36,157 bases of DNA from a virus. The stretch covers positions 1-36,157 of IMG/VR virus record IMGVR_UViG_3300046507_000321. The stretch is one strand, 5' to 3'. Under the pieces are notes generated by a model that was given only the letters and a program-made list of their open reading frames with translations, was not told where the DNA came from and did no database searches. The position numbers and the translations under genes are program-made. Shown one piece after another: positions 1 through 33,340 of the stretch (the stretch's first letter is position 1; each line of letters begins with the position of its first letter).

Positions 1-262
1 TAATATTTTGAGCGGCTTTTAGATCATTTGTTTTTGTTGGCTCAAATGGAGAGTTACCAGCTTCTAACCATCGCTTAAGAATTTCCCGATGGAAGTTAGC
101 CAGCTCATAGCGGTCTGCTTTGGTCTTGCCGGTATTGATATCCTTAAATAATTTGTATCGCTGAAATTTCCCTGTTTCTGGATTTCTGAAAGAGTAGTAA
201 ACGAACCATTGTTTTTTTATATCACCGTCCGCGTCGTAAATCTCTGGTTTTTTATAGTTCAT
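1..262 (-). CDS. int: Tyrosine recombinase / phage integrase, N-terminal part (truncated by window edge)
   Basis: The N-terminal 87 codons of a leftward integrase are visible; the rest, including the catalytic R-H-R-Y residues, lies off the left edge. The visible part begins MNYKKPEIYDADGD and contains WFVYYSFRNPETGKF, the arm-binding N-terminal pattern common in Bacteroidota phage and mobile-element integrases, then a SAM-like stretch ending near LEAGNSPFEP. The start at 262 matches the family's usual start. The frame is also open upstream for 44 more codons to an ATG at 394, which would run through the attachment core. I prefer 262, but the sequence does not settle it. The gene sits beside the attachment site and repressor, as expected for a lysogeny module. 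Family assignment is firm; activity cannot be judged. Confidence 0.88.
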   Translation of the reverse strand, partial: MNYKKPEIYDADGDIKKQWFVYYSFRNPETGKFQRYKLFKDINTGKTKADRYELANFHREILKRWLEAGNSPFEPTKTNDLKAAQNI

Positions 263-263
263 T

Positions 264-284
264 CTTGTCAGCGCTTTGTCAGTG
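264..284 (+). repeat. Left pair of integrase arm-type direct repeats
   Basis: Two tandem copies of a 10-bp word (CTTGTCAGCG at 264-273, TTTGTCAGTG at 275-284) lie exactly 11 bp apart. The same word recurs as a second pair at 422-442, same orientation and spacing, on the other side of the tRNA-like core. Paired, helically phased direct repeats on both sides of a core are the known layout of integrase arm sites. The assignment is inferred from layout. Confidence 0.6.
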
Positions 285-285
285 A

Positions 286-341
286 AGACCGCTAACTTGC
301 TGATTGTTAGCGGTCTATTTGTGGAGCCGGAGGGATTCGAA
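286..341 (-). other. attP: Putative attP core: tRNA 3'-end mimic plus hairpin
   Basis: Read on the minus strand, 341-322 is TTCGAATCCCTCCGGCTCCA. This has tRNA 3'-end geometry: a 7-nt T-loop, 5-nt T-stem strand, 7-nt acceptor strand and discriminator A. No tRNA body lies upstream of it. It is followed by a perfect 11-bp inverted repeat (AGACCGCTAAC at 286-296 against 306-316, 9-nt loop), as would be captured from a host tRNA gene plus its terminator. Tyrosine integrases often use tRNA 3' ends as attB, so this is the likely crossover region. The exact crossover point and the host tRNA are not known. Confidence 0.7.
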
Positions 342-421
342 AAATCGTCTACCCTTAAAACAGGCTGGAAACGCGGTTTTTGATCGTTTTTCATAGGCTA
401 AAATAGGGTGTTTTTAGTGTT

Positions 422-442
422 TTTGTCAGTGGTTTGTCAGTG
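422..442 (+). repeat. Right pair of integrase arm-type direct repeats
   Basis: Two exact copies of TTTGTCAGTG (422-431 and 433-442) lie 11 bp apart and repeat the left pair. They sit between the att core and the end of the repressor gene. Intact arms on both sides of the core argue for an unrecombined attP. Confidence 0.6.
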
Positions 443-446
443 ACAA

Positions 447-1244
447 TTACCTTGGTTGTGTTATTGAAACAATGTTAAATACCTGTAGGCAATCGTCTAA
501 ATTAAGTTCAAAATCCGGGTAACGGTCCTTGTCTGGATTTAATGAATGGCAGGTTATAATTCCTTTTTCTACATCATGTTTAGTGATCCGTTTTGTAAAA
601 ATTCCATCCTTGTGAACGATTACGTAATCCTGGTATTTATGGATATGGAATTTACTTTTCCAGTAATGCCGCTGTATTACCCTGCCAGTAACTATGTACC
701 CTTCTTTAATGGATTCGTCCGTCCCATTATTCATACTATCGCCTTCTACGATAAAAGCCCTGTATTTGCCTCTATACATTTTCGATACTACGAATGAATG
801 CTTATCGAAGTTTTCTTTTAAATATGGCTCGTCGCTATAATGCTCTATGTAACCTGCCTGGGCTTTGACTGGAACTAATTCGACAATCATTATATATTGA
901 CCATGCCCGATATCAATAAAGTCCGATTCATTATCCGTGTGTTGTATATCTCCCGGGACAGCTTGAGTATCCGGTTCCGGTCTTTTGCCGTACTGTACCA
1001 TACCCTCTTTAGGGGAAGCTAATAAATCAGTTTTATATCTGGGGCCTTTATCGAATAATAGCCAATCAAGATTATAGGTCGGGAAAGCTTTTGAAAGTAG
1101 GTTTAATGTAGGGGACTTAAATGAACCGGGATCGTCTGAGTTAACAATCTTTGACAGGTTGCCGGGGTCCATCTCCATGGCCCTGGCAGCTACCTTACTA
1201 GTTGTATATTCTTTCTTAATGGCGGTCTTTAAGTTTTCTAACAT
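447..1244 (-). CDS. CI/LexA-type phage repressor (HTH plus S24 peptidase)
   Basis: A 265-residue leftward protein. Residues about 5-65 look like a helix-turn-helix DNA-binding domain (TSKVAARAMEMDPGNLSKIV). Residues about 115-265 form an S24/LexA-type self-cleavage domain. The likely cleavage pair is A130-G131 in VKAQAGY; the nucleophile is S170 in VEGDSM and the general base is probably K218 in FTKRI. In this family, RecA-stimulated self-cleavage inactivates the repressor and induces the prophage. The gene is divergent from the early operon, and TGTATNATTGTA repeats in the gap at 1279-1315 and at 1599-1630 are good operator candidates. The wide S-K spacing compared with LexA suggests a small insertion. 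The call as the lysogeny master repressor is strong, but its operators are inferred. Confidence 0.87.
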   Translation of the reverse strand: MLENLKTAIKKEYTTSKVAARAMEMDPGNLSKIVNSDDPGSFKSPTLNLLSKAFPTYNLDWLLFDKGPRYKTDLLASPKEGMVQYGKRPEPDTQAVPGDIQHTDNESDFIDIGHGQYIMIVELVPVKAQAGYIEHYSDEPYLKENFDKHSFVVSKMYRGKYRAFIVEGDSMNNGTDESIKEGYIVTGRVIQRHYWKSKFHIHKYQDYVIVHKDGIFTKRITKHDVEKGIITCHSLNPDKDRYPDFELNLDDCLQVFNIVSITQPR

Positions 1245-7479: not shown

Positions 7480-8400
7480 ATGATTACAAGGAAATTCACA
7501 CAAGAAGAAGATCAATTTTTACGAGACAATTGCCTTACCATTCCAAAGAAAAGAATGTCTAAAATGTTATGCAGGAGTGAAGCAAGCGCAGGCAATAGAA
7601 TGAAGCTTTTAGGAATAGTTGTTCCTGCCGAAGTTGCTCAAAGGTTTTTAAAAGAATCCTTCATCAAAAAAGGCACTAAGGCATTCAACAAGGGTAAAAG
7701 GATGGAAGATTTCATGTCACCGGATGCTATAGAACGCACAATGGGCACAAGATTTCAAAAGGGAGGCATACCGCACAATACCAGGAAAGCTGATGGAGTA
7801 GTAAGCATACGAAACAACAAAGGGATTCTGTCAAAGTGGATCAGGGTTGAATGTTCGAAATGGCAACAGCTTCACCATTACAACTGGTTAAAGGCCGGTA
7901 AGGAAATTCCAAAGGGGAATATCTTGATTTACAAAGATGGTGATCCGCTAAATTGTGAGCTTTCCAATCTGGAATGTATCAGCCGGACTGCAAACCTTAA
8001 TCGCAACAAGCAGGGAACTACCGCAGCCGAGAGAATGACCAAGCGCTGGCGAAAAAAGAAAGATCCGGAATTCGCCAAAGAATTAGCCGAGGCTGAAAGG
8101 CTGAAAAAGAAAGAGCTTAAGAAAGCGGCCAATAAAAAGCGCAGGATTGAAACGGTGAAATTTGAAAAGCGAATCGCCAAGGTCCTGAAGCAAAAGCAAA
8201 AGATCGAGGCTAAGAAAAGCATCGAACTGATAAAGGTTCAAAAAGAACGCCAACAGGAAAAAAGATTTGAAATGAAACCTGTAGACCTCAGCAACCTGGA
8301 GCCGTTAAGAATCGATCACAAAACAATCGTCTACCTGAAGCCAGGGCAAGACAAACAAGCAGTAATTGAAAAATATTTAAACCGAGCAGTGAATTTTTAA
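7480..8400 (+). CDS. HNH-type endonuclease with HTH and long basic tail
   Basis: A 306-residue protein. Residues about 5-45 resemble a Myb/HTH unit (FTQEEDQFLRDNC). Residues about 130-175 are an HNH_3-like module: HHYNWLKAGKEIPKGNILIY, then DGDPLNCELSNLE. The DGD-N-NLE part is conserved, but the central histidine position in the usual HxDGN is changed to YKDGD, a variant known in Bacteroidota phage proteins. The C-terminal ~110 residues are a very basic coiled-coil-like helix. It may be a homing-type endonuclease or a structure-specific nuclease. The activity is uncertain. Confidence 0.68.
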   Translation: MITRKFTQEEDQFLRDNCLTIPKKRMSKMLCRSEASAGNRMKLLGIVVPAEVAQRFLKESFIKKGTKAFNKGKRMEDFMSPDAIERTMGTRFQKGGIPHNTRKADGVVSIRNNKGILSKWIRVECSKWQQLHHYNWLKAGKEIPKGNILIYKDGDPLNCELSNLECISRTANLNRNKQGTTAAERMTKRWRKKKDPEFAKELAEAERLKKKELKKAANKKRRIETVKFEKRIAKVLKQKQKIEAKKSIELIKVQKERQQEKRFEMKPVDLSNLEPLRIDHKTIVYLKPGQDKQAVIEKYLNRAVNF

Positions 8401-8815: not shown

Positions 8816-9157
8816 ATGAGTTTAAAAGTTGCTACGGTCTGTAGCGGTATTGGTAGCCCTGAAGTGGCGATAAACGAATTAGGCATAGATCATGAAATTG
8901 TATTTGCCTGCGACATTGACAAGTACGCCAGATCTTCTTACCTGGCAAATCACAAAGCCGGAATGATGCTTACCGATATGACCAAAGAAGATTGGATAGG
9001 CGAGCAGTTTTACAGTGATATTTTTATAGGCGGCATCCCTTGCCAGGCATTCAGCTTAGCCGGTAAACGTTTGGGGGAGCTTGATAAAAGAGGTTTGTTG
9101 TTTTATGATTTTTTACCGGTACGTAAAAAATCAGCAACCAAAAGTTTTTATAATTGA
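8816..9157 (+). CDS. dcm: DNA cytosine-C5 methyltransferase, 5' part (frameshifted)
   Basis: The 5' part of a C5 methyltransferase. It carries motif I (VCSGIGSPEVA, SAM binding) and motif IV with the catalytic Cys (GGIPCQAFSLAG). It then reaches RGLLFYDF and leaves frame at a run of six T (9109-9114), stopping at 9155-9157. The conserved sequence continues in the +1 frame (YRYVKN...). Five T would restore one frame. I prefer the ATG at 8816; a GTG at 8780 directly after the previous stop would add 12 residues. The break may be a real inactivating or phase-type mutation, a +1 slippage site, or a homopolymer read error. Confidence 0.82.
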   Translation: MSLKVATVCSGIGSPEVAINELGIDHEIVFACDIDKYARSSYLANHKAGMMLTDMTKEDWIGEQFYSDIFIGGIPCQAFSLAGKRLGELDKRGLLFYDFLPVRKKSATKSFYN

Positions 9158-10250
9158 AAACGTAAAAGGCCTATTATCTGACAATAACGGCAGAACATTC
9201 CAGAACTGGTGCCAGCTATTAGGGCAAAGCATGAATACGCACTACAACATGTTTAATCATGAAGATAGTTTGCTTTATAACCTACACTATACCGTTCTAA
9301 ACTCCAAAGATTACGGGGTGCCCCAAAATAGAGAAAGGGTGTTTTTAATCGGAATACGCAATGATCTACCGAACACCTTCAGGTTTCCAAAGGGTGAGCG
9401 TTTGAAATTAAGGCTTAAAGATATTTTAGAACCGGCTGTTGATGAAAAATATTATTTGAGTGAAAAACTTATTAATGGCTTTTTAAACCATAAGGATAGA
9501 CATTCTGAAAAAGGGACAGGGTTTATTTTTAGCCCAAAAACAGGCGATGATATTGCAAGTTGCCTTCGGGCTAATGCCGCACTTTGTCCAACTGATAACA
9601 CAATCCTTGAAGATAGCGTTTTAGTTTCAAAAGAACGCCGTACCGAAGAGGCAAAAGCACAAAGAAGGGCAACCGGCTCAAACGATTTCAGGGGTAAAGA
9701 AATAACTTTTGAGCCCTCAGTCGTTATGAATTGTTTGCAGACCGGGTTAACTAATGATCATTTAATTATGGTTAAAGAGGCAACCGTAAAAGGTTACGCA
9801 ATAGCCGGTGAGGGTGATAGTATCAACTTTTTGCATCCAAATAGCGAAACCCGAAAAGGCCGCGTGGGTAAGGGTATCGCCAATACCATAGACACGGGGT
9901 GTAATCAGGCGGTTGTTGTGAGTGAACTTCAGGTTGTGGGCAATTTACCGGGGAATAACGAAATGAGAAGTCGTGTTTATTCTGATAATGGGTTAAGCCC
10001 AACAATAACGGCAAAGCAGGGCGGTGGCCATGAGCCTAAGATTACTACACAGCGACGTATTAGAAGATTAACCCCTTTAGAGTGTTGGCGTTTGCAGGGA
10101 TTCCCTGATAGCTATTTTCATAACGCTGCAAAGATCACTTCAGATAGCCAGCTTTATAAACAAGCTGGGAATTCTATGACAACAAAGGTCATGAAAGCAA
10201 TTATCGGTAATTTATTGCCGGTCCTGAATGAAAATAAAGTTGCATGTTAA
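9081..10250 (+). CDS. dcm: DNA cytosine-C5 methyltransferase, 3' part (frameshifted)
   Basis: The 3' part of the methyltransferase, with homology from about 9114 (YRYVKNQQPKVFIIENVKGL). It has motif VI (ENV), motif VIII (YGVPQNRERVFLIGIR) and motifs IX-X (RRLTPLECWRLQGFP; QAGNSMTTKVM). Between them is a long target-recognition region with internal repeats of the type found in phage enzymes (LSPTITAKQGGG). The nearest ATG, 9081, lies in the wrong context for a real start, so the part probably has no function alone. Joined to the 5' part it would be a complete, normal-size enzyme of about 478 residues. It overlaps the next gene by 7 bp. Confidence 0.82.
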   Translation: MIKEVCCFMIFYRYVKNQQPKVFIIENVKGLLSDNNGRTFQNWCQLLGQSMNTHYNMFNHEDSLLYNLHYTVLNSKDYGVPQNRERVFLIGIRNDLPNTFRFPKGERLKLRLKDILEPAVDEKYYLSEKLINGFLNHKDRHSEKGTGFIFSPKTGDDIASCLRANAALCPTDNTILEDSVLVSKERRTEEAKAQRRATGSNDFRGKEITFEPSVVMNCLQTGLTNDHLIMVKEATVKGYAIAGEGDSINFLHPNSETRKGRVGKGIANTIDTGCNQAVVVSELQVVGNLPGNNEMRSRVYSDNGLSPTITAKQGGGHEPKITTQRRIRRLTPLECWRLQGFPDSYFHNAAKITSDSQLYKQAGNSMTTKVMKAIIGNLLPVLNENKVAC

Positions 10251-20765: not shown

Positions 20766-21595
20766 TGCCATCTGATAAACACATATCAAGAGTATTCGCT
20801 CAACGTCACAGGCAGTATGAGAAGCGCTCACAACGTGCTTATCTAGCTGCCTTAAACGCCCAGGTAAACGAGGCGGCTAAGCACCTGCCTAATATTGTCG
20901 CGTTCACCAATGCGATCAACAACTTATCACCCGAGCCGGTAAAAATCGCCTTCCAGAAATGCTACAAATCTATTATCCTTGACGCAGGCGGGCAGCAATT
21001 AGCAGAGCTTCACCGCAACATCGGGCAAAAGGGCGTGTTTGATACGTCTTTCTATAAATCAGACTGGATAAAGAGGCTTAAGGATTGGTACGATGAACAC
21101 GGAGGCAACAGGGTAAAGGAAATCACCGAAACTACCAAGCGCAGGTTAAGAGACGCATTAAAAAATAGTTATACCGATAATGAAGGAATGAGCAACCAGG
21201 AGCGGGCAAAGCTGATCTATGACGAAATATCCGATCCGGATTATAATAGATACCGCTCGCTAGTGATTGCGCGTACAGAGGCCACAACAGCCGCGAACCT
21301 GGGCCATTCTATTGCAGCCGATAGTTTATCAGACAGGCTTAACATGAAATTGGAGAAAAGATGGATTCCGACCATTGACAGCCGTACCCGTGACGCGCAC
21401 GAATTAATGCTACTTTCACCTACCATCGATAAGGATGAATTGTTTGATGTAGGAGGGGAGTTACTGGCTCAGCCTGGTGATCCTGCAGGAAGCGCAAGAA
21501 ATGTAATTAACTGTAGATGCAGGGTTGTTTATACGGTGGTTAGAAATTCAAGCGGTAGGATCATGCCGAATGAGTTAGAAAGCATCAGCGTTTAG
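20765..21595 (+). CDS. Mu F-like head morphogenesis protein
   Basis: A 276-residue protein related to the Phage_Mu_F family. The C-terminal part has the diagnostic YRSLVIARTEATTAANLGHS, WIPTIDSRTRDAHELM, QPGDPAGS and NVINCRCRVVYTV. Such proteins are minor head proteins attached to the portal. The N-terminal ~110 residues are helical. Its last 21 bp overlap the convergent DUF4468 gene, a common sign of a gene captured into the head operon. Confidence 0.88.
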   Translation: MPSDKHISRVFAQRHRQYEKRSQRAYLAALNAQVNEAAKHLPNIVAFTNAINNLSPEPVKIAFQKCYKSIILDAGGQQLAELHRNIGQKGVFDTSFYKSDWIKRLKDWYDEHGGNRVKEITETTKRRLRDALKNSYTDNEGMSNQERAKLIYDEISDPDYNRYRSLVIARTEATTAANLGHSIAADSLSDRLNMKLEKRWIPTIDSRTRDAHELMLLSPTIDKDELFDVGGELLAQPGDPAGSARNVINCRCRVVYTVVRNSSGRIMPNELESISV

Positions 21596-22129
21596 GTTAC
21601 TCATGTTTGATTTAAGGCTTTGAATTAAGTTCCTAACTTTCGTATCGGCAAAGATAAATTCCTTTTCATAGCGTTTGATTGCCGCCTTCTTGCTTTCGAA
21701 TGGAAGCTTTTTCACTTCATCATGAAGATAATGGCTATATCCTTCGGATATCTGGTAAACGGAGCCGCCGCCATCCATGGTGAGATCATAAACCCTGTAT
21801 CTGTATTTACCGTCCTTAATATCAACCGCTATGGTGTAGTTAAAATAAGAGTTGGTATTATAACCAAATCCGGCTTGAAATAGCTCTGATCCTTTACCGA
21901 TCAATTGATGGCTTACTCTGTCGTTAACCCTTAATACCGATTTTGAGTTATTAAATGTATTTGCAAACCATGTCTGAGCAAGCGTAAAGAGCCTATCTGC
22001 GGATGCTGTTGAATCCTTGATTACAACAACTTCTTCATAGACTATAGCACTATCTTTTAAAGGGAGTTCTATTTTTTGCGCCTTGGCGAACAGAGGTAAT
22101 AAGAATAGGATAAGGATAAGTTTCTTCAT
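21575..22129 (-). CDS. Secreted DUF4468 protein (leftward cargo gene)
   Basis: A 184-residue protein with an N-terminal signal peptide (MKKLILILFLLPLFAKAQ, cleavage after Ala-17 or nearby). The mature region has the DUF4468/TBP-like pattern of Bacteroidota: VNDRVSHQLIGKGSELF, then YFNYTIAVDIKDGKYRYRVY and ISEGYSHYLHDEVKKLP. It is exported and perhaps periplasmic. It lies opposite in direction to the head genes and convergently overlaps the Mu-F-like gene by 21 bp. It has no structural role by homology. It is probably a cargo gene expressed from its own promoter in the lysogen, altering the host envelope. Confidence 0.8.
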   Translation of the reverse strand: MKKLILILFLLPLFAKAQKIELPLKDSAIVYEEVVVIKDSTASADRLFTLAQTWFANTFNNSKSVLRVNDRVSHQLIGKGSELFQAGFGYNTNSYFNYTIAVDIKDGKYRYRVYDLTMDGGGSVYQISEGYSHYLHDEVKKLPFESKKAAIKRYEKEFIFADTKVRNLIQSLKSNMSNLNADAF

Positions 22130-32335: not shown

Positions 32336-33340
32336 GTGATTAAGGGTAAAGATCTGTTTTTATATATTAAGGTGGCTGGCGTTCCAACTGCCGTAGCTTA
32401 CGCTCAAAATTGTGAGCAAACAATTACAGCAGACGCTATTGAGTGTACCACTTTCGGAAGCAATTCCTTCAAGGATTATGTGTATGGAGATCGCGGTTAT
32501 ACGCTCACTCATACCGGCTTAACAACAATTCAAAAAAACTATTCTTCTTTAGCGCTTCAACAAGCGATCATTAACGGCACCAAAATAGATTTTGTTTTTG
32601 GTGGACTAGATCCCGCGAATGGTGTATTCTATTCCGGTACGTGTATGATTACACAAACCGATTTAGATAGCTCTTATGATGGGATTTCTACGTTTAAAGC
32701 AACTCTTTTAGGTTGCGGGGCATTGGCAATCAATCAATCAACAACCACTACAACTATATACGCCAAAGGATTTAACGGTAGTGTTATCCCATCGTGTGCC
32801 GTTGGTGGTACACCAAGTACTTTATTCCCTTGTGGGGTTTATAACGTAAATGGAGTTTATTTAGGGGCGGCAACTACTGCAGCAAACGTTGTAACGCTTT
32901 GGAACGCTGATACAGTGAACCAGACTTACGGCGTATTGAGTGCAGGGCCGAACGGGTGCAGTTATGTTTTAACAAGTCCTTTTTCTGTAGATAGATTACC
33001 TGACTTTATTTTATTGGAAGCTGGCTTTAGTTTATACTACGGTCCATCTGCTGCGATACCGGTTACTGGCTCTGATATTCTGGCGTTAAATCAAACCATT
33101 TTCGCACCAAGCTTAACATTAAATACTGGCACCACTAATTCAGTATTCAGTATTGTCATACAAACAAGCAAAACAATTTCAGCGGTCACAGATCTTGACG
33201 CAGGAGGATTCAGTGATATTAAATCGCTTTATACAGTCCAGGGAACGGTCACGATTAGCGAGGTAGTTTATAATATTTATACAATGGTAAATGCTTTACC
33301 ATATTCAACCAATCACAGACATCAATTTACTTTAAACTAA
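32336..33340 (+). CDS. Tail-tube-like protein with long C-terminal extension
   Basis: A 334-residue protein. Residues 1 to about 133 look like a tail tube domain (MIKGKDLFLYIKVAGVPTAV; ADAIECTTFGSNSFKDYVYG; FVFGGLDPANGVF), a second copy of that fold besides 26750. Residues about 140-334 are beta-rich (CAVGGTPSTLFPCGVYNVNG; GCSYVLTSPF) without a known family. It starts at GTG. It may be a tip or fibre-base subunit built on a tube fold. Its stop (TAATG) overlaps the fibre start. Confidence 0.68.
   Translation: MIKGKDLFLYIKVAGVPTAVAYAQNCEQTITADAIECTTFGSNSFKDYVYGDRGYTLTHTGLTTIQKNYSSLALQQAIINGTKIDFVFGGLDPANGVFYSGTCMITQTDLDSSYDGISTFKATLLGCGALAINQSTTTTTIYAKGFNGSVIPSCAVGGTPSTLFPCGVYNVNGVYLGAATTAANVVTLWNADTVNQTYGVLSAGPNGCSYVLTSPFSVDRLPDFILLEAGFSLYYGPSAAIPVTGSDILALNQTIFAPSLTLNTGTTNSVFSIVIQTSKTISAVTDLDAGGFSDIKSLYTVQGTVTISEVVYNIYTMVNALPYSTNHRHQFTLN

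Follow-up and report, generated by a model that had tools for sequence, protein, structure and literature searches.

We consider it likely that the DNA analysed here (the window, a whole IMG/VR virus record of 36,157 bases) carries the attachment site by which a temperate phage of Bacteroidota enters the 3′ end of the tmRNA gene ssrA, and that this site lies within the 5′ end of the phage's own integrase gene (int), with integration swapping a long form of the integrase (Int) for a short one. Judged by the continuity of the reading frame, attP is inside the 5′ coding part of int and not intergenic. Read along the minus strand, the elements are, in turn, repressor gene, P′-arm repeats, core, 11-bp hairpin, P-arm repeats and integrase, the last being cut at the left edge of the window:

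2–394, minus strand: 5′ part of a tyrosine integrase gene; the open reading frame begins at ATG 394–392 and has 131 codons in the window (430 in the relative L158)
260–262, minus strand: internal ATG immediately ahead of the folded arm-binding domain, put forward as the short-integrase start available in the lysogen
264–284, plus strand: P-arm pair of arm-type repeats with 11-bp spacing, within the integrase frame
286–316, minus strand: hairpin with a perfect 11-bp stem, between core and P arm and within the integrase frame, where it encodes RPLTISKLAV
322–341, minus strand: attP core, the same as the ssrA (tmRNA) 3′ end including the discriminator base
392–394, minus strand: ATG put forward as the long-integrase start; it lies 53 nt upstream of the core and is separated from the int body on integration
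422–442, plus strand: P′-arm pair of arm-type repeats with 11-bp spacing, between the repressor stop and the integrase start
447–1244, minus strand: gene resembling a repressor and immediately preceding int (PHROG 4 transcriptional repressor, E 1.9e-11)

An earlier, sequence-only reading of this DNA had described the 20-nt RNA-gene end, the hairpin and the paired repeats, all of which lie at the positions it gave. The repressor-like gene and int possibly form an operon that integration parts.

The core (minus strand 341–322, TTCGAATCCCTCCGGCTCCA) is identical to the RNA-gene 3′ end of plausible hosts, the identity extending by one further nucleotide (C). It had been taken for the end of a tRNA; that it is the 3′ end of an RNA gene holds, but in hosts the gene is tmRNA, as identified by ARAGORN and by Rfam RF00023 in the core-bearing stretches tested. 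The core was found in at least 118 genome stretches, with titles nearly all from Bacteroidota, and nearly all of the matches listed read GGACGAGGG followed directly by TTCGAATCCCTCCGGCTCCA. The same two programs made no call on the window itself because its tmRNA portion is only 20 nt long. The sequence-only reading further expected the 20-nt end to be joined to the hairpin in a host tRNA gene. The end was indeed matched in hosts, at tmRNA and not tRNA, whereas core and hairpin stem taken as one signature gave no match in the genomes or viral contigs searched, which indicates that the hairpin is phage-borne and outside the host site; most hosts have other sequence downstream of the core in place of the hairpin. 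As a side observation, one Mucilaginibacter metagenome-assembled genome (G002) contains two tmRNA 3′ ends differing by one base, CCGACTCCA and CCGGCTCCA, on the contigs L205 (G002:C246) and L072 (G002:C321), which suggests mixed strains in the bin.

We sought relatives of the phage both free and integrated. L158, part of a 51-kb viral contig, has a second free attP with a left flank as in the window, and the two integrases are 60% identical over 127 amino acids, the attP-encoded stretch included. The Mucilaginibacter contig L072 has the same tmRNA end, followed by a nearly identical hairpin with arm repeats and by an integrase that is 69% identical to that of L158, and is an attL. Using the L158 integrase, which matches Pfam PF00589 and PHROG 1, we searched 401 genomes from the family to which a Mucilaginibacter reference belongs and found strong integrase matches in 11, every one of which (11/11) contains the core twice, the two copies being 39–57 kb apart on one contig in ten genomes and on two contigs in G115. 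The insertion site is tmRNA in 10 of these 11 lysogens and tRNA-Ser in one (G023), and the lysogen cores, 21–34 nt long, occupy the same place as the attP core. The RNA gene is restored at attL and a fragment is left at attR. Six attL sites examined with ARAGORN keep the full tmRNA, and the matching attR sites lack it and carry the displaced host-side hairpin, so that rebuilding attP from attR and attL is direct. The catalytic part of the window's own integrase lies beyond the left edge; checked in the relatives, R280, R382, H402 and Y411 (A1 numbering) are invariant, giving the pattern R...R..H..Y.

Other contigs show related arrangements. L233 has a natural attP with a 22-nt exact tRNA-Leu end that is present in G824, G117 and G001, and L248 has a natural attP with a probable tRNA-Leu end, one base different from L246. 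Separately, the frames of distant integrases in L240 and L241 (tRNA-Ser), L244 and L246 (tRNA-Leu) and L230 (tRNA-Pro) are open back into the neighbouring tRNA gene, and the site-in-gene layout may therefore reach other tRNA targets. In L255 (3887–4000) the start of the integrase frame falls in sequence resembling the 5′ part of a tRNA-Ser gene (GAGAGGTGTCCGAGTGGTTGA), unlike the 3′-end cores found elsewhere.

The arm-type repeat TTTGTCAGTG occurs exactly at 275–284, 422–431 and 433–442, with a degenerate copy, CTTGTCAGCG, at 264–273, and spacing (11 bp) and orientation are the same in both tandem pairs, as had been proposed. Single copies of the word are not significant in the window (3 found against 2.4 expected), and this would suit an attribution of the tRNA-like 20-mer, the hairpin and the repeats to a chance gathering with no attachment function. 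The paired 20-nt pattern, however, occurs twice against 0.02 expected. Across most of the group an arm motif, [AG]CTG[AC]C, is paired at about −101/−89 and +58/+70 from the core start, with 4–7 matches against about 0.4 expected; other arm motifs occur in G119, G355, G115, G023, L233 and L248. With relatives integrated exactly at the core and the same arm geometry, a chance gathering is contradicted by the lysogen junctions, and we give it practically no weight.

The hairpin is a perfect inverted repeat (286–296/306–316), and the stretch 264–345 folds at −20.5 kcal/mol (z = −3.3). The hairpin is preserved in L158 through compensating changes, near-identical ones occur in L072 and G117, and in G005, G043, G042 and G058 the hairpin is made of inverted arm-type motifs. 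Terminator prediction on the window gave no call, and the U-tracts are weak. In the free phage the hairpin is coding, and in a lysogen it sits between ssrA and the int body. It could serve as a substitute for the displaced ssrA terminator or as an insulator of int; alternatively, its two halves could be Int sites in inverted orientation.

The placement of attP within int can be followed in the reading frame. In the window no stop interrupts the int frame between ATG 394 and the integrase, a stretch that takes in the core, the hairpin and the P arm. We extended the comparison to 15 attPs, four of them natural (window, L158, L233 and L248) and 11 rebuilt from lysogens. Each has an in-frame upstream start (ATG in 13, GTG or TTG in two, G030 and G042 offering only TTG or GTG), and the int frame is open from this upstream start to the internal start in 15/15, compared with 1/30 for the other two frames; a comparison with shuffled flanks gives a combined p of 2e-7, a value that counts related phages as independent. 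Depending on the phage, the core reads SNPSGST, RIPPAP or FESLRLH, so that all three frames are used, and the one used is always the int frame. In G005, G043 and G042 int starts 110–125 nt before the core, which makes the P′ arm, and hence the whole attP, coding. The tail so encoded shows poor amino-acid conservation, and a codon-position test on its few codons gave no clear synonymous-substitution signal; similar tails (MGA.KK...EI) occur in G023, G115 and G119. In the relatives integration leaves the upstream region, the start codon and 8–41 codons at attR (17 codons predicted for the window phage).

A different reading of the same layout is that attP lies in the int leader, as in KplE1, with a promoter between the core and the internal ATG/GTG, with translation of int beginning every time at that internal codon, and with the upstream open frame unused. 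The internal codon is conserved before the folded domain and could be the sole true start, the tail is disordered, and it is common, also in Bacteroidetes, for a tRNA gene and int to run in the same direction with the promoter of int inside attL (PMC2951348). An unused frame should nevertheless gather stops, as apparently happens in L245 and L251, which are more distant; there a stop lies between the candidate core and int, and openness is accordingly seen not to be automatic. Set against the unbroken frame and upstream start in all 15 attPs, and the core read in three frames, we regard the unused-leader reading as decidedly unlikely.

The domains of the integrase bear on what would remain after integration. 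In an AlphaFold2 model of the L158 Int, which has an overall fold like that of lambda Int, residues 1–45 have pLDDT below 50 and are predicted to be disordered, and the arm-binding domain is ordered from about residue 46–49, order beginning next to Met47. The relatives have an internal ATG or GTG at the equivalent domain boundary. In relatives of the VKxKW type the conserved Val is encoded by GTG in 6/6, though 14% of the Val codons in these relatives are GTG, which suggests that this GTG is a real start.

From these observations we propose that in the free phage int would be read from ATG 394, probably together with the upstream repressor gene, through core, hairpin and P-arm sites, and that the product would be a long Int whose N-terminal tail is disordered. 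Recombination at the core would then carry the upstream region, the start codon and the 17 codons to attR, and place the int body at attL directly behind the restored ssrA. This body would retain the arm-binding, core-binding and catalytic domains and the conserved internal start (ATG 262), so synthesis of long Int would end at once on integration and only short Int would be left. The region upstream of the short-Int start carries Int arm sites, and the short form could thus be autoregulated. That integration acts in this way as an Int isoform switch throughout a clade of Bacteroidota phages, from a long, regulator-coupled form made only from free DNA to a short form made only in the lysogen, is a more tentative proposal, to which we give slightly less than an even chance. 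A stricter possibility is suicide of the SSV kind, in which integration would inactivate the gene and another element would have to supply the Int for excision. Every lysogen found does have the start codon and upstream region parted from the int body; the folded domains are nonetheless whole in attL, with a start codon conserved at their boundary. Since the folded enzyme starts after the tail at this internal ATG/GTG, we infer an exchange of long for short Int over destruction of the enzyme, and consider strict suicide unlikely.

The sequence-only reading held that attP has both arms and that the DNA is not split by integration, and this agrees with the lysogens: int and the regulator gene are contiguous here and at opposite prophage ends in the 11 lysogens, where on 11/11 attR sides int is preceded by a gene of the same strand, often one for an HTH regulator. 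With int, core and repressor contiguous, the window DNA most likely comes from an unintegrated phage. An attP-like junction could also arise in integrated DNA between tandem prophages, and tandem islands do exist in general (Islander table, PMC4383910). No host sequence was seen in the window, however, and the joined order is common to two independent viral records (window and L158), making a tandem origin very improbable. The further suggestion of a circular or permuted genome was not borne out. Open reading frames run off both edges of the record, and the roughly 300 missing integrase codons are absent from the right edge, where another open reading frame runs off; as the integrase is truncated on the left side, the record is only part of the phage genome.

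To the right of attP lie early genes for an ERF recombinase, a replication initiator, a DnaC-like loader and a C5 methyltransferase, followed by a packaging, head and tail cluster with an HK97-type capsid. DNA similarity of the window to annotated phages was not found. The window is probably from a temperate siphovirus-like phage of Bacteroidota, and its integrase relatives and shared attB point to a host probably in the Sphingobacteriaceae, such as Mucilaginibacter or Pedobacter. Elsewhere in the genome, the early region has plus-strand genes for a C5 cytosine methyltransferase and an HNH endonuclease (9081–10250 and 7480–8400). A DUF4468-domain gene (21575–22129, minus strand; Pfam E 4.5e-12) lies on the opposite strand within the head-gene cluster, overlaps the end of a head morphogenesis gene and looks like a moron, and a Phage_tail_2 (tail tube) match (32336–33340, plus strand) comes after the tape-measure gene, a tail-gene arrangement that is unusual.

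Integrases that disrupt their own gene have been described in review as exclusive to archaea (PMC8371274), and we found no report in the open-access literature of a bacterial integrase having its own attP as its 5′ coding end. The clade contradicts the archaea-only view as regards disruption itself. SSV-type viruses and plasmids of archaea have attP within the coding sequence of int, and it is often a duplicate of the 3′ end of a tRNA gene (PMC8371274). The present phages would be alike in having attP within the int coding frame, judging by its continuity, and in the 11 lysogens integration likewise parts an N-terminal portion from the int body. They differ in being bacterial and siphovirus-like, with an upstream regulator gene and phage-like arm pairs, in lacking PF16795 (Phage_integr_3) and having only PF00589 and SAM-like domains, and in losing just a disordered tail from an enzyme body left whole with an internal start; the presence of all modelled folded domains in attL argues against the dead integrated fragment of the SSV type.

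A bacterial case is IntP of the Myxococcus phage Mx8 (PMC6070905), in which attP likewise falls within the coding part of int and integration alters the Int protein; Mx8 and SSV are both named as integrases extending across attP (Islander, PMC4383910). Mx8 exchanges the 3′ end of the gene, and so the C terminus, and keeps start and promoter, whereas here the core is at the 5′ end, which is lost, and not in a 3′ coding part that would give a new C terminus. The int gene of E. coli KplE1 (KplE1/HK620-type; PMC2951348), with an attL that overlaps its promoter, shares the common direction of a tRNA-type gene and int and the arm sites that immediately precede the int body in attL, a likeness that suggests autoregulation. 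In KplE1, though, start and promoter are on the int side of the crossover and nothing is cut off; here the upstream start is on the far side and the internal start on the int side. Integration-dependent immunity in mycobacteriophage BPs (PMC4557955) also has attP in a coding gene, the product of which integration changes, that gene being the repressor in BPs and the integrase here.

The clade would join an integration-edited integrase gene and control of int through attL in one mesophilic phage system, offering a simple explanation of how a phage keeps its integrase from reversing integration, in a setting, culturable Mucilaginibacter or Pedobacter, where the idea is testable. It also carries the warning that gene callers will pick wrong int starts in prophages. 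If true, the isoform switch would be a bacterial, 5′-end counterpart of the archaeal suicidal integrases.
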